Shown piece after piece: positions 7,430 to 59,848 of a stretch of 64,000 bases of DNA. Positions within the stretch are counted from its first letter, which is position 1, and each line of letters begins with the position of its first letter. The notes under the pieces are model-generated. The model did not search any database. It was not told the origin of the DNA and worked only from the letters and a program-made list of their open reading frames with translations. The position numbers were made by a program, and so were the translations under genes. Origin of the DNA: Olsenella sp. An270 (lineage in GTDB: Bacteria; Actinomycetota; Coriobacteriia; Coriobacteriales; Atopobiaceae); NCBI RefSeq assembly GCF_002159735.1, contig NZ_NFJF01000001.1:248001-312000 (forward strand), read 5' to 3'.

Positions 7430-7510
7430 GGCCCGCCGGCACTTCTCGCCAGCTCATTGGGCTTCGCCCAAAAGTCGCTGGCCGAGAAGTGTCGGCGGGC
7501 CTTTCTGTTT
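7430..7510 (+). terminator. Long nested terminator after valS
   Basis: A near-perfect 24-bp stem (7430-7453 with 7478-7501) encloses a smaller TTGGGCTTCGCCCAA hairpin and is followed by TTTCTGTTT. The stem contains the over-represented TTCTCGCC octamer. Confidence 0.85.
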
Positions 7511-17610: not shown

Positions 17611-19506
17611 ATGCACAGAGAATTCCTGATGGGCAACGAGGCTATGGCCCTGGGCGCGCTCGCTGCGGGCGTGAACGTGGTGGCCGGCTACCCGGGCACG
17701 CCGTCGACCGAGGTCCTGGAGACCGTGGCGCGCCGCCGGGGCGAGGGCGTCTACGTGGAGTGGTCCGTGAACGAGAAGGCGGCGCTCGAGGTGGCGGCCG
17801 GCGCGGCGTACGCCGGGGCCCGGGCGCTCGTGACGATGAAGCAGGTGGGCCTGAACGTCGCCTCCGACCCGCTCATGAGCCTCTCCTACATCGGCGTCAA
17901 GGGCGGCCTGGTGGTCCTCGTGGCCGACGACCCCGGTCCCATCTCGTCCCAGACCGAGCAGGACACGCGCACCTTTGCTGCCTACGCCAAGCTGCCGATC
18001 CTCGACCCCTCCAGCCCGAGCGAGGCCTACCAGATGATGGGGGAGGCCTTCGCGCTCTCCGAGGAGCTGGGCTGCCCCGTGATCGTGCGGCCCACGACGC
18101 GCGTGGACCACGGCTACGAGGACGTCGAGGTGGCCGAGCCCGAGGAGTGGCTGGTCAACGAGCCCGAGGGCTTCGTGCGCGACCCGTCCCGCTGGGTCAT
18201 CTTCCCCGCGCTCTCCGTGCGCGCCCACGCCGCCATCGAGGCGCGCGACGCGGAGCTCTCCGAGCGCCTCTCCGGCTACGCGAGAAACACCGTCCGGCAG
18301 ACGGCCGGCCCGGACGCGCGCCCGCGCCTCGGCATCGCAACGCACGGCATCAGCGCCACCTACGTCGCCGAGAACCTGAGCGAGAAGGACGACGTGCGGG
18401 TGCTCCGCGTGGCAACGCCGTATCCGTTCCCTGAGGACCTGGCAGCCGACTTCCTGGCCGGTCTTGACGAGGTCCTCTGCATCGAGGAGCTCGACCCCGT
18501 GATTGAGCGCGCCCTCATCGCCACCTGCGGCCGCCGCAGCCTCACGGTTAAGATCCGCGGCAAGCTCACCGACGACATCCAACCCTCCGGCGAGAACACC
18601 GTTGAATCGGTAGGGCGTGCGATTGACGCTTTCCTCGGTAGGGGAGCGGCCGACGAGAGCGAGGCGCCGGGCATTTCCCCGCGCGCAGTTCCGCAGCCGC
18701 GCAGCGGCGAGGACTGTTTGAGCACGGGGAATTGCCCGGCGCCCCCTACGCTCCCAGTCCGCCCTCCCGTCCTCTGCGCCGGCTGCCCGCACCGCGCGAG
18801 TTTCTATGCCGTCAAGAAGGCCATGCGCGGCCGCAAGACGCTCTTCTGCGGCGACATCGGCTGCTACACGCTCGGCAACGCCAAGCCGCTCGACATGGTG
18901 GACACGTGCCTGTGCATGGGCGCGGGCATCAACATCGCACAGGGTGTGACGCACGTGGAGCCGGACACCGCTGCCTTCGCCTTCGTCGGCGACTCCACCT
19001 TCTTCGCCTCCGGCATCACCGGCGTGGTCAACGCCTTCTACAACCAGGCCAGCATGACGCTCGTCGTCCTGGACAACTCCACCACGGCCATGACCGGCCA
19101 CCAGCCGCATCCCGGCACGGGTCGCACGATGATGGGCCAGGTCGTCGAGAAGGTCAGCATCGAGCGCGTGCTGCGCGCGATCGGCCTCACGGTCGTGGAG
19201 ACCGTCGACCCGCTCGACCACGAGCGCGCCGTCGAGACCGTCCGCCGCGTGGCCGACGAGCCGGGCGTCAAGGCGATCATTTTCCGGAACCCGTGCGTGG
19301 TTCTCGCCAGGCCCAAGGCGAGAAGTGCGGTGGATGCCGAGAAGTGTGTGGGCTGCCAGCGCTGCGTCCGCGAGCTGGGATGCCCCGCCCTCGTGCCTGA
19401 CGCCGCCACCGGCAAGGTGCGCATCGACCCCGCGCAGTGCACGGGCTGCACCCTCTGCGAGCAGATCTGTCCCACGCACGCCATCTCGGGAGGTGAGCGC
19501 CTGTGA
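17611..19506 (+). CDS. iorA: Indolepyruvate:ferredoxin oxidoreductase, alpha subunit
   Basis: Large subunit of the oxygen-sensitive enzyme that converts aryl pyruvates (from Trp, Phe, Tyr transamination) plus CoA to aryl-acetyl-CoA, CO2 and reduced ferredoxin. The N-terminal half begins with GYPGTPSTEVLE; the TPP-binding half contains CAGCPHRASFY, GDIGCYTLG and FVGDSTFFASG; the C-terminus carries two ferredoxin clusters (CVGCQRCVRELGCP, CTGCTLCEQICP). The 631 residues include an extra ~27-residue Pro-rich segment (residues ~352-378) encoded by a hairpin repeat (18664-18742) just before RPPVLCAGCPHR. GAGGGAGG precedes the ATG; iorB overlaps its stop. Confidence 0.95.
   Translation: MHREFLMGNEAMALGALAAGVNVVAGYPGTPSTEVLETVARRRGEGVYVEWSVNEKAALEVAAGAAYAGARALVTMKQVGLNVASDPLMSLSYIGVKGGLVVLVADDPGPISSQTEQDTRTFAAYAKLPILDPSSPSEAYQMMGEAFALSEELGCPVIVRPTTRVDHGYEDVEVAEPEEWLVNEPEGFVRDPSRWVIFPALSVRAHAAIEARDAELSERLSGYARNTVRQTAGPDARPRLGIATHGISATYVAENLSEKDDVRVLRVATPYPFPEDLAADFLAGLDEVLCIEELDPVIERALIATCGRRSLTVKIRGKLTDDIQPSGENTVESVGRAIDAFLGRGAADESEAPGISPRAVPQPRSGEDCLSTGNCPAPPTLPVRPPVLCAGCPHRASFYAVKKAMRGRKTLFCGDIGCYTLGNAKPLDMVDTCLCMGAGINIAQGVTHVEPDTAAFAFVGDSTFFASGITGVVNAFYNQASMTLVVLDNSTTAMTGHQPHPGTGRTMMGQVVEKVSIERVLRAIGLTVVETVDPLDHERAVETVRRVADEPGVKAIIFRNPCVVLARPKARSAVDAEKCVGCQRCVRELGCPALVPDAATGKVRIDPAQCTGCTLCEQICPTHAISGGERL
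18664..18742 (+). repeat. Hairpin repeat (copy E) in frame inside iorA
   Basis: A 79-bp element with 18-bp inverted arms (17 of 18 matched) and the same core as the four intergenic copies at 39827-40062 and 48735-48935: on the minus strand CCCCGTGCTCAAACAG near one end and GGAACTGCGCGCGGGG at the other. It is read in frame as part of IorA with no stop. It lies in a linker between domains. Confidence 0.8.
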
Positions 19507-29209: not shown

Positions 29210-29247
29210 GCCTGTCCAAAAGCTGGCAGCTGCGCATCCGCCCATGC

Positions 29248-29285
29248 GTCGCGGCACCCCGAGGGAATGCCCGGGGTGCCGCGAC
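29248..29285. terminator. Hairpin between convergent genes
   Basis: A perfect 13-bp stem (29248-29260 with 29273-29285) with a 12-nt loop and no T-run on either strand; probably a bidirectional or weak terminator. Confidence 0.5.
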
Positions 29286-29300
29286 GCCCTCATGTGACGG

Positions 29301-38369: not shown

Positions 38370-39205
38370 GGGTTACCGAGAAGCCGTCCTCGTCATACAG
38401 CGGGGCGATGACCCCTGCGTCGATGGAGCTCAAGAACGAGCGCGTCGCAGAGACGAAGGCGGGCACCGACGTAGTGAGCGAGCTCGTGCTCTCCGTGCTG
38501 GCTGGGGTCTTCATCTCCATGGGTGCGACGTTCATGCTCGTCGTCAAGTCCGACGCGACGCTGCCCTTCGCGGCGACCCAGCTCCTGGGCGGCCTCTCCT
38601 TCGCCCTCGGGCTCTTTCTGATCCTGGCGGCCGGCGCCGAGCTCTTCACGGGGAACTGCCTCATGGTCATGGGCCCGCTCTCGGGTCGCTTCTCCTGGGG
38701 CAGGCTGCTCGCGAGCTGGGGCGTTGTCCTTCTCGGCAACCTGCTGGGAAGCGTCCTCGCCGTCGTGCTCGTGCTCGCCGCCGACGTCGCCTCGGCGAAC
38801 GACGGGGCGCTCGGCGAGGCCGCCGTCGCCGTTGCGGAGGGGAAGGTGGCGCTCGGATGGGGCGTCGCGTTCTTCCGCGCGATCCTGTGCAACCTGCTCG
38901 TCTGCCTCGCGGTCTGGGTGGGCCACTCCGCCAACTCCGTCACCGACAAGTTCTTCTCGGCCCTCCTGCCCGTCATGGCCTTCATGGCGGCGGGCTTCGA
39001 GCACTGCGTCGCCAACATGTTCTTCCTGCCCTTCGCCCTCATGCTGCAGGCGACGGGCGCTGCGTCCGGGACGGTGGAGCTCGGCGGCGTCCTGCACAAC
39101 CTGAGCGCCGCGACGCTGGGCAACCTCGTCGGCGGCGTCGTGCTCGTCGGCTTCTCGTACTGGTTCGTCTACGGGCGCTCTCGCGCCGAGGGAGGGAAAG
39201 CGTGA
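38366..39205 (+). CDS. Formate/nitrite transporter family protein, probable formate channel
   Basis: FNT-family pentameric channel, 279 residues, six helices. Family motifs: GAELFTGN in the first half and [10 protein letters not shown] with the conserved central His in the second half. Position between folD and folE, downstream of fhs, points to formate export (FocA role). It starts with an ATG overlapping the folD stop; AAAGGAG lies upstream. The N-terminal ~30 residues are cytosolic. Nitrite or other small anions are less likely from context. Confidence 0.9.
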
Positions 39206-39816
39206 CCGTCGATCGCCGCGACCTCGTGACCGAGGCCAACTCACAGGGGTTCCACCCCATCGACAAGCCGCGCGTCGAGGCGGCGGTCCGCGAGCTTCTG
39301 CTCGCGATCGGCGAGGACCCGGACCGCGAGGGGCTCGTTGGCACGCCGGACCGCGTCGCGCGGGCCTGCGAGGAGGTCCTCGGCGGCATGCAGGAGGATC
39401 CGGGCGCCCACCTTCGCAAGCAGTTCCATGAGCCGGGCAACCAGGAGATGGTGATCGTCAAGGACATCCCGTTCTCGTCCCTCTGCGAGCATCACATCCT
39501 GCCGTTCACCGGGCGGGCGCACGTCTGCTACATCCCCCGGGACGGGCGCATCACCGGGCTCTCCAAGATCGCCCGCTGCGTCTCGGGCTACGCGAGGCGC
39601 CTGCAGGTGCAGGAGCGGCTTACGGGTCAGATCGCCGACGCCATGGTGCGTGAGCTCGACCCGCTCGGCGTGCTCGTGGTCCTCGAGGCCGAGCACACGT
39701 GCATGACTATGCGCGGCATTCGCGCGGCCGGTGCGCTCACCACCACCTCGGCGGTGCGCGGCTGCCTGCGCGACCTCAAGACCCGCGAGGAGGCCCTGCG
39801 CCTCCTCGAGCTGTAG
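39202..39816 (+). CDS. folE: GTP cyclohydrolase I
   Basis: First enzyme of folate synthesis, making dihydroneopterin triphosphate from GTP. The 204-residue sequence has the zinc/active-site motifs [10 protein letters not shown] and EHTCMTMRG, and GTPDRVARA near the start. The GTG start overlaps the transporter stop (GTGA). It ends the fhs-fchA-folD-focA-folE run; hairpin A begins 10 nt after its stop. Confidence 0.96.
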
Positions 39817-39826
39817 GCTCGTTCTG

Positions 39827-39937
39827 CGCGTCCCCGGGCGGGGTCGGCGGGCATACCCCGGCGCTCAGACAGCTTGCCGCAAAGGACGCGGCAAGAACTC
39901 GCGGCGGGTTATGCCCGCCGCCCCCGCCCGGGGCGCG
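39827..39937 (+). repeat. Hairpin element A after folE
   Basis: A long hairpin with ~33-bp arms (three mismatches) and the conserved core CCCCGGCGCTCAGACAG ... AACTCGCGGCGGG. It starts 10 nt after the folE stop. The core differs from copy D (after thyA) at two bases, while the arms are unrelated. No T-run follows. Confidence 0.85.
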
Positions 39938-39970
39938 CCGCATGTCGTACGAGCTCGATTACCCTTGCGT

Positions 39971-40062
39971 CGGGGTTCGCTGGGTTGCCCCGCCGCGAGT
40001 TCCGCAGCCGCGCCCTTTGCGGCGAGGACTGTCCGAGCGCCGGGGCAACCCAGCGAACCCCG
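39971..40062 (+). repeat. Hairpin element B before folC
   Basis: Perfect 22-bp arms (39971-39992 with 40041-40062) around the core in the opposite orientation to A (CCGCGAGTTCCGC ... CTGTCCGAGCGCCGG). It ends 26 nt before the folC start and lies 33 nt after A. A and B cores are reverse complements and could pair with each other. Confidence 0.85.
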
Positions 40063-40088: not shown

Positions 40089-41417
40089 GTGTATCAGTTG
40101 CCGTTCGAGGTGCCGGAGATGACGTATGCGGAGGCGCTCGCGCATGTGCGCGGGGCGCTGCGCTTTGGCATCTGCCCGCTGCTGGAGACCGTGGAGGACA
40201 TGCTTGCCGAGCTCGGTGACCCCGACCTCGCGTTCGAGTGCGTGCAGATCGCCGGCACCAACGGAAAGACGTCCACGGCGCGCTACACGGCCGCCATCCT
40301 CGCGGGGGAGGGGCTCGACGTTGCCCTCTACACCTCGCCGGAGCTCGTGAGCTACACGGAGCGCATGGAGGTCGGTGGGCGGCCCGTCTCCGAGGGGGCG
40401 TTCGCACACGGCGTCGCCGCGGCGAAGGTCGCCGGCGAGCGCGTGAACGCTCGGCGCGCGGCGGCGGGGGAGCGACCCTATGACATCACCGAGTTCGACA
40501 CGCTCACCGTCGCGGCGATGGTCGTCTTCGCCGAGGCGGGGGTAGACGTTGCGGTGCTCGAGTGCGGGCTCGGCGGCCGTTGGGACGCGACCTCGGCCGC
40601 AAAGTCCATCCGCTCGGTCGCGGTGACCGGCATCGGGCTCGACCACACGCGCATCCTCGGCGACACGCTCGAGGAGATCGCGGGCGAGAAGGCCGCCATC
40701 ATCAAGCCCGGGCGCAGGTGCGTGCTCGGGGCTGGGACCGCCGAGCCCAAGAGCGTCGAGGACGTGTTTCTCGCCCGGGCAGCCGAGACGGGCGTGTCTC
40801 CCGTGAGGCCCGGCTTCAGGGTCACCAAGCGTCCGCATCGCCTGGGCGCGCCGCTCGAGCTCGACGTGATGACGCCACGCGCCACCTATGCCGAGCTCGC
40901 CGCGCTCAAGCCCGCCTACCAGGCCGCCAACATCGCCTGCGCCGTCGCGCTCTGCGAGGAGCACCTCGGTCGCGCGCTCGACCCCGACGCGCTCTTCACC
41001 TCGGTCGTCCAGTGTCCGACGCCCGGGCGCTTCCAGCTGCTGCGCCCCGAGCCGCCCGTGCTGATTGACGCCTGTCACAACCCCCAGTCCGTCGAGGCGT
41101 TCCTCATGGCGCTGGAAGACGTCGCGCCCGCGCGCGACGAGCGGCCCGTCCTTCTCGCCGCCGTGCTCGCCGACAAGGACGTGGACGGGATCGTCGAACT
41201 CCTCGCCGGGGCGTTCCCTCGCGTCGCGGTCACGCAGACCTCGAGCCCGCGCGCCCTTGCCGCCGAGGAGCTCGCACGGCGCTTCTCCGACGCGGGCGCC
41301 CACGTGGTCGGGACGTATCCAACGGTTGAGGACGCATCGTCGGCATTGTGTGGAGAATCGTACGTCGCGTGCGGCTCCATCACCCTTGCGGGAGAGCTTG
41401 CGGCCATCTTCCGGTAG
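40089..41417 (+). CDS. folC: Folylpolyglutamate synthase / dihydrofolate synthase
   Basis: Adds glutamate to dihydropteroate or THF. Motifs: P-loop IAGTNGKTSTARY, VLECGLGGRWDATS, GLDHTRILGDTLEEIAGEKA and DACHNPQS. I start at GTG 40089 with AAGGGAG five bases upstream (442 residues); a GTG six codons earlier would place the ribosome site inside the gene. It follows the folE run across the hairpin pair A/B, so co-transcription depends on those elements. Confidence 0.93.
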   Translation: MYQLPFEVPEMTYAEALAHVRGALRFGICPLLETVEDMLAELGDPDLAFECVQIAGTNGKTSTARYTAAILAGEGLDVALYTSPELVSYTERMEVGGRPVSEGAFAHGVAAAKVAGERVNARRAAAGERPYDITEFDTLTVAAMVVFAEAGVDVAVLECGLGGRWDATSAAKSIRSVAVTGIGLDHTRILGDTLEEIAGEKAAIIKPGRRCVLGAGTAEPKSVEDVFLARAAETGVSPVRPGFRVTKRPHRLGAPLELDVMTPRATYAELAALKPAYQAANIACAVALCEEHLGRALDPDALFTSVVQCPTPGRFQLLRPEPPVLIDACHNPQSVEAFLMALEDVAPARDERPVLLAAVLADKDVDGIVELLAGAFPRVAVTQTSSPRALAAEELARRFSDAGAHVVGTYPTVEDASSALCGESYVACGSITLAGELAAIFR

Positions 41418-48104: not shown

Positions 48105-48133
48105 CGTCAGCAAGAAACGACAAGGGCGGCGAG

Positions 48134-48191
48134 ACAGAGAAACGGCACAGAATCAGCCTCTGAGATGCCCTGTTCTGTGCCGTTTCTCTGT
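48134..48191. repeat. 19-bp perfect inverted repeat between convergent genes
   Basis: Arms at 48134-48152 and 48173-48191 (ACAGAGAAACGGCACAGAA and its complement) with a 20-nt loop lie 22 nt from the folA stop, a likely bidirectional terminator. CGACAAGGGCGGC just before it (48119-48131) matches the repeat unit of the 26168-26492 array. Confidence 0.65.
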
Positions 48192-48212
48192 TTCGGCGTG
48201 TGTGGCGTCCGG

Positions 48213-48713
48213 CTAGCGGCGCTCGTAGGTTACGAAGTCAAAGGGAACGCCCTCGGGGGTGACGCCGCCCTCCCGGGTTTCGGTGAGCTTCCAGGCGGGG
48301 TCTGCGTCGAGGTCGGGGAAGTACGTGTCACAAGGTCGCACGCAGCGGTTGCGTGTCACGACGGCGCGCTCGCAGTGGGGGAGGAGCAGCTCGTAGACCT
48401 GCCCGCCGCCGATGACCCAGGCCTCGTCCTCGTCCGTGACCGCAGCGAGCGCCTCGTCGACCGAGTGCACAACGTCCACGCCCTCGGGCGAGAAGGACGT
48501 GTCACGCGTGAGCACCACATTGTGACGGTTCTTGAGCGGACGGCCGCCCGGGAAGCTCTCGAGCGTACGACGGCCCATGATGACCGTATGCCCCGTCGTG
48601 CAGGACACGAAGTGCCGCATGTCCTCGCGGTTCTCGACGACCATCCCGCCGTCGAGCCCGATCCCCCAGTCGTCGCACACCGCCACGATCGCACTCAGCT
48701 TGCAGCTCATCAT
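48213..48713 (-). CDS. folA: Dihydrofolate reductase
   Basis: Reduces dihydrofolate to THF with NADPH. The 166-residue sequence has IVAVCDDWGIGLDGGM at the N-terminus, VIMGRRTLESFPGGRPL for the NADPH site and WVIGGGQVYELLLP. It lies downstream of thyA, the enzyme that makes dihydrofolate, across hairpins D and C. The ATG follows AGGTATGA-type sequence with a GAAAGG ribosome site. Confidence 0.95.
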   Translation of the reverse strand: MMSCKLSAIVAVCDDWGIGLDGGMVVENREDMRHFVSCTTGHTVIMGRRTLESFPGGRPLKNRHNVVLTRDTSFSPEGVDVVHSVDEALAAVTDEDEAWVIGGGQVYELLLPHCERAVVTRNRCVRPCDTYFPDLDADPAWKLTETREGGVTPEGVPFDFVTYERR

Positions 48714-48734: not shown

Positions 48735-48818
48735 GGCCCGGCACATTTCCCCGTGCTCAAACAGCTTCGGCGCAAAGGGCGCGCCTGCAGAACTGCGCGC
48801 GGGACAATATGCCGGGCC
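48735..48818 (-). repeat. Hairpin element C before folA
   Basis: Arms at 48735-48753 and 48800-48818 (three mismatches in 19) around the conserved core. Read in the direction of folA it has the same orientation as B (before folC) and ends 21 nt before the folA start. The apical CGCGCCCTTTGCG is shared with B. Confidence 0.85.
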
Positions 48819-48839
48819 CCGAGCTGGAGAAACGCAGGC

Positions 48840-48935
48840 GAGAGGGCGAGAAGGACATTGTCCCGCCGCGAGTTCTTGCCGCGCTCTTTGCGGCAAGCTG
48901 TCTGAGCGCCGGGGCATTGTCCTTCTCGCCCTCTC
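48840..48935 (-). repeat. Hairpin element D after thyA
   Basis: Arms of 26 bp (48840-48865 with 48910-48935, one or two mismatches) around a core almost identical to A. It starts 9 nt after the thyA stop. Each arm contains the over-represented GGCGAGAAGGAC motif in inverted orientation. Confidence 0.85.
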
Positions 48936-48944
48936 GCCGGGTGC

Positions 48945-49793
48945 TCAGACCGCGATCGGGATGTCCGTGACCTGCGGGCCGTGCTGGTAGTTCTCGACGA
49001 TCAGGTCGGCGGTCGTGAAGTCGTAGAAGTCCGTGACCTCGGGGTTCAGGCGGACGGTGGGCGCCGGATACGTGGGGCGCGAGATGAGCTCGCGCACGAC
49101 GTCCACGTGACGGTCGTAGATGTGGGCGTCGGCGATCATGTGGACGAGCTCGCCGGCGTTCATGTTCGAGACCTGGGCCACCATCATGAGCAGGATCGCG
49201 TACTGGCACACGTTCCAGTTGTTGGCTGCGAGCACGTCTTGGCTGCGCTGGACGAGCACCATGTTGAGGGTGGGTCGCTCCTCGCCCGGCTCCTGCGTGA
49301 CGTTGTAGATCGCGTTGTAGGCGCAGGGGTAGAGGTTCATCTCCGAGAGGTCGGCAAACGTGTAGAGGTTCGTCATGATGCGGCGGGAGTAGGGGTTCTC
49401 GCGCAGGTCCTTGAGGACGCGGTCCATCTGGTCGTAGTCGCCGTCAGGGTAGTGGGACTTCACGCCAACCTGATAGCCGTACGCCTTGCCGATCGAGCCC
49501 GACTCGTCGGCCCACTCGTCCCAGATGTGGGAGTTGAGGTCGTGGATGTTGTTGGACTTGCGCTGGTATATCCAGAGGACCTCGTCCATCGCGGACTTGA
49601 GGGCGGTGCGGCGAAGCGTCAGTGCCGGGAACTCCTCGCGCAGGTCGTAGCGGTTGCACACGCCAAAGCGCTTGATGGTGTAGGCGGGCGTGCCGTCCTC
49701 CCAGCGGGGGCGAACCCTCTGCCCCTCGGTGGTCGTGCCGTGCTCGATGATGTCGGAGCACATCGAGACGAAGATGTCGTCTGCCTTGCTCAT
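48945..49793 (-). CDS. thyA: Thymidylate synthase
   Basis: Converts dUMP plus methylene-THF to dTMP plus dihydrofolate. The 282-residue protein shows the expected substrate segments: SRRIMTNLYTFADLSEMNLY with the nucleotide Arg pair; the catalytic Cys lies in the YPCAYNAIYNVT segment; QRSQDVLAANNWNVCQYAIL, and HIYDRHVDVV. It is one of the longer TS forms with an SIGKAYGYQ insert. It precedes folA in the same direction. Confidence 0.94.
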   Translation of the reverse strand: MSKADDIFVSMCSDIIEHGTTTEGQRVRPRWEDGTPAYTIKRFGVCNRYDLREEFPALTLRRTALKSAMDEVLWIYQRKSNNIHDLNSHIWDEWADESGSIGKAYGYQVGVKSHYPDGDYDQMDRVLKDLRENPYSRRIMTNLYTFADLSEMNLYPCAYNAIYNVTQEPGEERPTLNMVLVQRSQDVLAANNWNVCQYAILLMMVAQVSNMNAGELVHMIADAHIYDRHVDVVRELISRPTYPAPTVRLNPEVTDFYDFTTADLIVENYQHGPQVTDIPIAV

Positions 49794-58579: not shown

Positions 58580-59749
58580 ATGAACGTCCTTGTTATCAAC
58601 GCCGGCAGCTCGTCGCTCAAGTACCAGCTCCTGGACGTGGACACGCGCGAGGTCTACGCCAAGGGCAACTGCGAGCGCATCGGCATCGACGGTTCCTTCG
58701 TCGGTCACGAGGAGATGGGCGGGGAGAAGCAGAAGCTCGAGGTCGCGCTCCCGGACCACAAGACCGCCATCAAGTACGTCTTCGACATCCTCAAGACCGT
58801 TGACAAGCCCATCGGCGGCATCGGCCACCGCGTGGTCCAGGGCGGCTGGTACTTCCCCGAGTCCGCCGTCGTGACCGACGAGACGCTCGCCCAGGTCCGC
58901 GAGGTCGCGCCGCTGGCGCCGCTGCACAACTACGCCGAGGCCGACGTCATCGAGATCTGCCGCGACATGTTCCCCGAGCTCGGCAACGTCATCGTGCCCG
59001 ACACCTCCTTCCACTACCACATGCCCGAGCACGCCTGGCGCTATGCCATCCCGCGTGACGTCGCCGACACCTACCACGTCCGCAAGTACGGCGCCCACGG
59101 CACGAGCCACCGCTTCATCTGGCGCACGGTCCACGAGATGATGGGCGACAAGACCCACAAGCTCGTGAGCTGCCACCTCGGCTCCGGTGCCAGCCTCTGC
59201 GCCATCCAGGACGGCAAGTGCATGGACACCACCATGGGCCTCACGCCGCTCGACGGCCTCATCATGGGCACGCGCTGCGGCACGCTCGACCCCGCCACGG
59301 TCTTCTACCTCAGCCGCGAGGCGCACATGAGCATCGACGAGATCGACACGATGATGAACAAGAAGTCCGGTCTTCTCGCCGTTTCCGAGGTCTCGTCCGA
59401 CTCCCGCGACATCGAGGCCGGTGCCGCCGAGGGCGACGAGAAGTGCCAGATGGCCCTCGACATGTTCAACTACCGGGTCTCCCAGCTCTTCGCCGAGATG
59501 GCCGCCTCCATGCAGGGCGTCGACACGATGGTCTTCACCGCGGGCATCGGCGAGAACGCGCCCGAGATTCGTGCCGACATCTGCAAGCTCCTCGGCTGGA
59601 TGGGCGTCAAGATCGACGCCGAGAAGAACGCGCCGCGCTCCGACGAGCCGCGCGTGATCTCCACGCCCGACTCCGCGATCACCGTCATGGTGGTCCCCAC
59701 CAACGAGGAGTACATGATCGCGCTCGACGTCGAGGAGCTGTTGGGGTAG
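58580..59749 (+). CDS. ackA: Acetate kinase
   Basis: Makes ATP and acetate from acetyl phosphate, 389 residues. Motifs: NVLVINAGSSSLKYQLLDV, HRVVQGGWYF, GTSHRFIWR, CHLGSGASLCAI and FTAGIGENAPEIR. The ATG at 58580 has GGGAGGAGAG upstream. The partner phosphotransacetylase gene is not in the window. A 100-bp palindrome begins at its stop codon. Confidence 0.96.
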   Translation: MNVLVINAGSSSLKYQLLDVDTREVYAKGNCERIGIDGSFVGHEEMGGEKQKLEVALPDHKTAIKYVFDILKTVDKPIGGIGHRVVQGGWYFPESAVVTDETLAQVREVAPLAPLHNYAEADVIEICRDMFPELGNVIVPDTSFHYHMPEHAWRYAIPRDVADTYHVRKYGAHGTSHRFIWRTVHEMMGDKTHKLVSCHLGSGASLCAIQDGKCMDTTMGLTPLDGLIMGTRCGTLDPATVFYLSREAHMSIDEIDTMMNKKSGLLAVSEVSSDSRDIEAGAAEGDEKCQMALDMFNYRVSQLFAEMAASMQGVDTMVFTAGIGENAPEIRADICKLLGWMGVKIDAEKNAPRSDEPRVISTPDSAITVMVVPTNEEYMIALDVEELLG

Positions 59750-59848
59750 CGCCACGGGCATTTCCCTCCGCATGTGCTTTCGAGAGGCCCGGCTCCTGGG
59801 GAGCCGGGCCTCTCTCAAGAAACATGCTTCGAGAAATGCCCGTGGCGC
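59749..59848. repeat. 100-bp palindrome after ackA
   Basis: Arms of ~48 nt, imperfect, start with GCGCCACGGGCATTT at the ackA stop and end with AAATGCCCGTGGCGC; the tip is AGAGGCCCGGCTC / GAGCCGGGCCTCT. There is no T-run. The long-armed layout recalls the A-E hairpins, but the core is different. Confidence 0.75.

Follow-up and report, generated by a model that had tools for sequence, protein, structure and literature searches.

The closest described systems are the REPs of the GTAG and CGTC superfamilies which, in the accessible text of the source, carry tags, have stems of 5-13 and 8-9 bp and occur mainly as head-to-head dimers; association with a transposase gene is given there for the GTAG class only and not reported for the CGTC class (PMC3733652). 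RAYT genes are described, in the available portion of another study, as always flanked by two inverted REPs (PMC2817692). The accessible part of Cozzuto et al. 2008 presents 92 families of stem-loop repeats with no role assigned (PMC2267715).

Here we analyse a family of hairpins detected in a 64-kb stretch of an Olsenella genome (hereafter, the window; C1:248001-312000 of a 2.01-Mb assembly in 14 contigs). Like GTAG/CGTC REPs and BIMEs as presented in the accessible text, the family consists of short intergenic palindromes in tens of copies, some of them intragenic, that lie near the ends of coding regions and form head-to-head dimers mostly 20-100 bp apart (PMC3733652, PMC2817692). Unlike REPs as characterised in the same portions of text, the hairpins have no conserved terminal tag, their arms have a median length of 22 bp compared to REP stems of 5-13 bp, the arm sequence depends on the locus, and the conserved part is an internal loop that is common to two phyla; unlike RAYT-linked REPs, no copy was found at the RAYT genes examined. 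Inverted doublets are common, as in REPINs, but, compared with the available part of the REPIN description, the spacers of the two pairs in the window are unrelated by eye, single copies are common, and each partner is already a long hairpin (PMC3116915). The hairpins also resemble the stem-loop families in the accessible part of Cozzuto et al. in that they share a secondary structure and are mostly intergenic (PMC2267715). The family works like REP/BIME elements, yet we do not file it as a member. Among the titles listed by literature searches, nothing was recognisable as this hairpin family.

Hairpin pairs in two folate gene spacers

A covariance-model search detects five core copies in the window (E < 1e-5, filters off), the next-best match having an E value of 0.42. 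The copies and the neighbouring genes are:

17629..19506, + strand: ORF holding the fifth copy
18663..18743, + strand: fifth copy (core 18679-18728), in frame within the ORF
39202..39816, + strand: folE, GTP cyclohydrolase I (NCBIfam)
39827..39937, - strand: hairpin A (A-type core 39858-39907), directly 3' of the folE stop, core antisense to folE
39971..40062, + strand: hairpin B (B-type core 39990-40043), 5' of folC, core sense to folC
40092..41417, + strand: folC, bifunctional protein FolC (NCBIfam)
48213..48713, - strand: folA, dihydrofolate reductase (NCBIfam, best families under the curated cut-offs)
48735..48821, - strand: hairpin C (C-type core GCGCAGTTC..CTGTTTGAGCAC, 48750-48802), 5' of folA, core sense to folA
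48837..48938, + strand: hairpin D (A-type core 48863-48912), directly 3' of the thyA stop, core antisense to thyA
48945..49793, - strand: thyA, thymidylate synthase (NCBIfam)

The ORF that holds the fifth copy presumably encodes the alpha subunit of indolepyruvate ferredoxin oxidoreductase. The first-pass annotation had described matching inverted hairpin pairs in the folE-folC and thyA-folA spacers, in the same transcriptional order, and the model matches and folds bear this out: A (-) follows folE and B (+) precedes folC, with D and C arranged likewise on the other strand. The spacings come close to those it gave: the distance of 9-10 nt from the upstream stop to the first hairpin holds for A (10 nt), whereas D, measured by its arms, starts 6 nt from the thyA stop. 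The two-base difference between the A and D cores was reproduced; the arms differ by locus and nevertheless pair, as claimed (inverted arms of 33 nt at 91% identity in A, 36 nt at 86% in B, 33 nt at 91% in D and 39 nt at 72% in C); and the cores within each pair are mutually complementary, which is true of any inverted pair. For each of the four intergenic copies, both strands fold as a single long hairpin (-57.1 to -94.6 kcal/mol), and the full A-type core pattern has two exact matches in the window compared to 0.00 expected from 100 shuffles. No clean empty site was found for the fifth copy, the sole other match among the collected loci being too distant for comparison. Four more long spacer hairpins in the window, at 7430-7501, 29246-29287, 48130-48195 and 59749-59848, do not contain the core.

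Genome-wide census

With a covariance model built from nine copies and a threshold of E ≤ 0.01, the source genome yields 17 copies, spread over 14 intergenic sites and one ORF. All four intergenic copies in the window adjoin folate genes, as had been pointed out, the fifth being intragenic; genome-wide, however, folate junctions make up only 2 of the 14 intergenic sites and 4 of the 17 copies, and the folate-linked cis-acting RNA device proposed in the first-pass annotation does not survive this census. The non-folate sites include the spacers between a pheA-like gene (below the cut-off) and aroC, between argJ and argB, between ispD and ispF, between a leuD-type gene and its neighbour, and between a ptsH-like gene (assigned by eye) and tgt, along with sites at genes for a heavy-metal ATPase, an MTA/SAH nucleosidase (beside degV), a formamidase, a dipeptidase-like protein and Ogt. 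The other suggestion made at the outset, REP-type repeats that landed there by chance, came nearer the mark, although the tag, the 5-13-bp stem and the RAYT neighbour of REPs were not found. Scatter with no folate link and no conserved orientation had been named as the mark of ordinary REP/BIME elements; the copies are indeed scattered irrespective of folate genes, but their orientation relative to genes is strongly kept. The covariance-model scan of this genome and its relatives, with flanking genes recorded, which had also been suggested, showed a family present throughout most of the genus, with mostly non-folate flanks in the source genome. Altogether, the initial observation is confirmed, and its interpretation as a whole is partly supported.

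Core and arms

In the hairpin unit, arms that differ from locus to locus (about 22 bp) enclose a conserved internal loop of two strands and an apical helix with a type-dependent sequence. The loop is formed by 5' GCGAGTTC ... CTGTCTGAGCGC 3', within which the core strand can adopt a tandem G.A / A.G step, and the core as a whole reads CCGCCGCGAGTTC - apical helix - CTGTCTGAGCGCCGG. The B core contains an additional loop, GTTCCGCAG..CGAGGACTG, and the C core contains GCGCAGTTC..CTGTTTGAGCAC.

The 17 model matches in the source genome provide a check that is free of arm-based selection, and in all 17, 12-14 of the 14 arm positions are paired (counting G.T and taking the best of five registers). 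A larger set of 140 Coriobacterial copies was obtained by applying a pattern and an arm filter (9 of 14 pairs) to the collected loci, as opposed to whole genomes; the filter rejected 17 more pattern contexts, 5 of them with the full core, and the pattern partly missed C-type copies. The median arm in this set is 22 bp, and 2870 of the 3120 arm cells are Watson-Crick pairs, a level of pairing that is partly built in by the filter and further raised because arm length was set where pairing stops; by script, 8 copies have just 3-4 bp. The arms show a weak consensus, both close to the core and as far as position -13 (1.18 bits, without thinning of orthologues), which would be expected if they travel with the core; most arm positions carry little information.

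Orthologous arms change in pairs. Across three orthologous slots, to which copies were assigned by our own rules (the A copy of the window, the copy of L213 and all C- and E-type copies fall outside all three sets), 219 of 234 cells form Watson-Crick pairs in slot 2 of folE-folC (13 sequences), and 141 of 180 pair in slot 1 of folE-folC (10 sequences) and 141 of 162 in the remaining slot (9 sequences); in each slot, 9 of the 18 pair positions show at least two pair types. After a one-base slide of the arms, no more than 108, 76 and 56 cells remain paired, respectively, and the observed pairing was reached by 0, 10 and 0 of 500 shuffles, the shuffle maximum for slot 2 of folE-folC being 198. 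Covariation is less clear in slot 1 of folE-folC, the weakest of the three, which includes L184, L185 and L189 with arms from different copies. Paired stem changes between orthologues, such as mark a structured RNA element, are present and are clear in two of the three slots; stem covariation alone does not separate RNA from folded DNA. The ratio of G.T to A.C on the core strand is 37:36 for antisense copies at 3' ends in tandem spacers, 38:16 for sense copies at 5' ends in tandem spacers, 19:5 for convergent antisense copies and 111:68 over all 140.

Placement and orientation relative to genes

Among the 140 copies, counted as distinct by sequence rather than by locus and placed against gene calls from our own codon-score script, 101 lie in tandem spacers; for 61 of these the closest gene end is a 3' end and for 40 a 5' end, and the core is antisense in 54 of the 61 and sense in 39 of the 40. 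The distance from stop codon to core is 27-38 nt in 49 of the 54 antisense 3'-end copies. Convergent spacers hold 17 copies (11 antisense and 6 sense to the nearest gene), compared to 1 in divergent spacers (P about 1e-4, the placement P values being too small because orthologues count several times). The orientation counts omit 12 copies at locus edges, 5 within predicted genes and 4 in spacers longer than 800 nt. Close pairs number 29, of which 28 are distinct by sequence; every one is arranged (-)(+), with a core-to-core distance of 64-102 nt in 27 of the 28 distinct pairs and 312 nt in one. Given the antisense bias at 3' ends, the sense bias at starts and the uniform arrangement of the pairs, most copies point out of the spacer, towards the closest gene.

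Presence, absence and core swaps at orthologous junctions

The folE-folC junction was compared across 31 genomes of the genus, 30 of which yielded the locus, 4 of these being unreadable. Among the 26 readable species, 11 have two cores, 7 have one and 8 have none (by eye). Sister species differ at this junction: G012 has no core and G013 two, and G011 has none and G022 one. In two species (L187 and L194), the spacer is occupied instead by an unrelated long hairpin with GGGGACAGGCCCC. At thyA-folA, two copies are present in 15 of the 30 loci (by eye), and within a slot, the core type varies between species, sometimes together with the inner part of the arm, with the base of the stem unchanged. 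Core types also differ between L177 and L179, which have nearly identical slot-2 arms around a B core and an A core, respectively. The thyA-folA junction itself differs in L224, L226, L227 and L228, where the best match to folA has an identity of only about 54% and begins at the extreme end of thyA.

Fused or reduced pairs were observed in L184, L185, L220, L221 and L225, and between argJ and argB, the apex of a B copy holds a nested A copy that has arms of its own. No clean insertion with a target duplication was seen; an automatic comparison of occupied and empty sites in at least 169 pairs serves as a guide only, since many of the "empty" rows held copies missed by the pattern. Because the arms are locus-specific, we considered the possibility that cores land in pre-existing hairpins and rejected it: the empty junctions of L192, L198 and L199 have no arms either, and arms carry a weak consensus.

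Distribution across bacterial genomes

In 24 of the 25 genomes of the genus, the source genome included, the model matches at E ≤ 0.01 with 5-30 copies each, the exception being G021; in the same sample and at the same threshold, none of the 15 genomes from other genera of the order Coriobacteriales matched. In a sample of 396 genomes of the phylum, matches came from four genomes of the genus and from single places, each with complementary arms of its own, in 3 genomes belonging to a different family of the order. When named genomes were scanned with a pattern, the matches listed included Olsenella, Thermophilibacter and other Atopobiaceae records and, unexpectedly, at least 15 loci of Candidatus Omnitrophota OFTM55 and at least 1 of UBA2337. 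A broader model, R2, detects 54 copies in OFTM55 and 6 in UBA2337 (E ≤ 0.1), and matches 9 of 384 Omnitrophota genomes, these two seed genomes included (E ≤ 1e-4, strict filters). The Coriobacteria and Omnitrophota share an A core and a B core around one internal loop, and differ in the apical helices and arms.

Isolated single matches outside both groups, among the matches listed, are taken as chance (about 30 are expected by our estimate), and R2, in a search with no positive control, found nothing in 22 genomes of other groups that hold such matches. The viral collection gave one contig match, in which the arms are not paired. The T1 queries found nothing, or one weak partial match, in plasmids; the T2 queries gave 318 partial matches in enterobacterial records, mostly annotated phage tail genes among the matches listed, three weak matches and two viral contigs elsewhere, and no match in the phage collection.

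Hairpin arrays in an Omnitrophota genome

Of the 54 copies in OFTM55, 32 distinct ones were examined; 30 have a gene in view, and 28 of these follow a stop codon with the core antisense. Arm pairing is high here as well, with 515 of 554 cells Watson-Crick in 27 copies, and the wobble split in the arms favours the transcript strand, 22 vs 7. In 20 of the 32 copies, a second hairpin follows 63-76 nt further on, its loop being constant (CATCGAG type) and its stem locus-specific; 19 such stems, chosen for at least 8 of 13 pairs, have 225 of 247 cells Watson-Crick, with 2 G.T vs 5 A.C. The second hairpin is often followed by a third (L234-L263, by eye), so that the series looks like an ordered 3'-UTR array. 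A second hairpin of this type adjoins just 1 of the 140 Coriobacterial copies. In five OFTM55 loci (L246, L247, L248, L250 and L261), GTGAC..GTCAC palindromes lie within the apical helix, as though members of one repeat family had inserted into those of another.

Terminal tags and Y1 transposases

No conserved terminal tag was found in the 125 of 140 copies compared: near the base, GTAG occurs in 14 and 16 of 125, and CGTC in 12 and 20 of 125, on the two strands. In background 16-mers, the respective frequencies are 4.3% and 13.6%, so that GTAG is above background in the copies, an excess that TAG stop codons adjoining the hairpin may explain. The stems, with median arms of 22 bp and little sequence information, depart from the 5-13-bp stems with family-specific sequence that define REPs, and the head-to-head arrangement of REP dimers recurs in all 28 distinct pairs.

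A profile search for Y1 transposases gave no Y1_Tnp match in the source genome; such genes are present in 28 of the 32 genomes checked, with 77 places in the relatives. The model found no hairpin-family copy at the 40 of these 77 places that were tested (best E 0.25), and mobilisation by RAYTs was rejected on these grounds. Several of the ten Y1_Tnp places listed are flanked by other palindromes, GGGGACAGTCCCC-like or GTGAC..GTCAC; the RAYT-like genes of the genus and of OFTM55 among which such flanks occur are at L284, L287, L292-L294 and L299.

Possible origins and roles of the hairpins

The reading that we favour, with roughly even confidence, is that these are dispersed non-coding REP/BIME-like hairpin repeats, copied as folded non-autonomous units by a putative enzyme. 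It builds on the observed scatter of the copies, their patchiness at orthologous junctions, core swaps, fusion and reduction, nesting, placement at gene ends and paired drift of the arms. The copies would multiply as non-autonomous folded strands, which the putative enzyme may recognise through the internal loop; the arms would drift by paired changes either because foldability only is selected or because they are repaired by template switching between the arms. The host would tolerate hairpins in spacers that separate co-directional genes, and their effect there is probably on the decay or processing of mRNA and not on transcription termination. A mobiliser was not found (the search covered Y1 transposases in the source genome and 40 of the 77 Y1_Tnp places in relatives), and the strict post-stop placement in OFTM55, with the second hairpin at a near-fixed distance, resembles a 3'-UTR RNA more than a mobile palindrome. 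It is chiefly this genome that makes an RNA-level 3'-UTR element, kept because it is functional, the strongest rival: a transcribed hairpin would set mRNA 3' ends or stability as the target of a trans-acting factor, which would bind it (a decay-blocking protein, for instance) or cut it (a double-strand-specific nuclease, for instance). We consider this account possible but doubtful. It would be in line with the antisense post-stop position of 28 of the 30 OFTM55 copies, with the second hairpin in 20 of 32 and its well-paired stems (225/247), with the arm wobbles that favour the transcript strand and with the like orientation of 54 of the 61 Coriobacterial 3'-end copies. It fits poorly with the 40 of 101 tandem copies in Coriobacteria whose closest gene end is a start codon (39 of these have the opposite orientation), with the mixed Coriobacterial wobble counts (37:36, 38:16 and 19:5; 111:68 overall), with the 2 G.T vs 5 A.C in the second hairpin and its occurrence beside 1 of 140 Coriobacterial copies, and with the 8 of 26 species that have no copy at folE-folC.

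Classical REP elements moved by a REP-associated Y1 (RAYT) transposase would likewise be palindromic and intergenic, form head-to-head doublets and allow for the one intragenic copy in the window, and 28 of 32 genomes do carry Y1_Tnp genes; we nevertheless judge this origin unlikely, given the source genome with no Y1_Tnp match, the 40 of 77 places that have no family copy (best E 0.25), the different palindromes that flank several of the places listed, the lack of a conserved GTAG/CGTC tag, and stems far above 5-13 bp. Still less probable is a role as intrinsic transcription terminators or two-way insulators between genes. Stable GC-rich hairpins directly after stop codons and almost empty divergent spacers would suit it, but at least 6 T within 10 nt past the hairpin were found in none of 139 cases for the core strand and in 2 of 140 for its complement, and several sites separate co-directional genes of the same pathway (argJ/argB, ispD/ispF and folE/folC); intrinsic termination was rejected for lack of a U-tract. 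We give next to no credence to a folate-responsive cis-acting RNA, riboswitch or attenuator: the four intergenic copies in the window all adjoin folate genes and two exclusive folds can form, but the family is scattered at gene ends in this genome (just 2 of 14 intergenic sites being folate junctions), in its relatives and in some members of a distant phylum, and is therefore not a folate switch. Copies are, moreover, patchy at the same junctions in relatives, and Rfam, folate riboswitches included, has no match in the window at the gathering score; 14 matches in 4 loci are each under that score.

The loop as a structural motif and its permuted form

Dispersed palindromes are usually recognised by a common sequence, whereas the part shared here is a small internal loop. 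The unusual feature is a short conserved internal motif within long stems whose sequence depends on the site and whose pairing is retained, the 22-bp arms being free to vary provided that both sides vary together; hairpin families of this kind could be missed by sequence clustering. A broader proposal, which we put forward tentatively and with less confidence than the copying of folded units, is that the internal loop GCGAGTTC / CTGTCTGAGCGC is a widespread structural motif that would be recognised as a folded strand by a putative conserved enzyme in Coriobacteriales and Omnitrophota and would be permuted in some Pseudomonadota; the hairpins would mark gene ends, with arms free but complementary, and in one Omnitrophota genome, would form an ordered 3'-UTR array with a constant-loop second hairpin. 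If this reading is true, the class of elements would be defined by shape and loop, not by sequence. That two phyla have this loop and both core types in common suggests a conserved recogniser, which could be fished out. Within the genus, the same junctions offer a natural series of occupied and empty sites, swapped or nested copies and deletions, from which one could ask directly whether selection or arm-to-arm copying keeps the arms complementary.

The permuted form, which may represent the same motif, has the two strands of the loop swapped in order (CTGTYTGAGCG..CGAGTTYTG) around a short closing loop. Of 398 genomes in the phylum to which G826 (a gammaproteobacterial record) belongs, 2 contain it, at 5 sites in all; a backward control pattern matched nothing. 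The sites (L331-L335) sit in long imperfect hairpins, and the form is identical at two places on Variovorax paradoxus CP063167.1, one of which is seen between annotated genes (L336:2501-2566).
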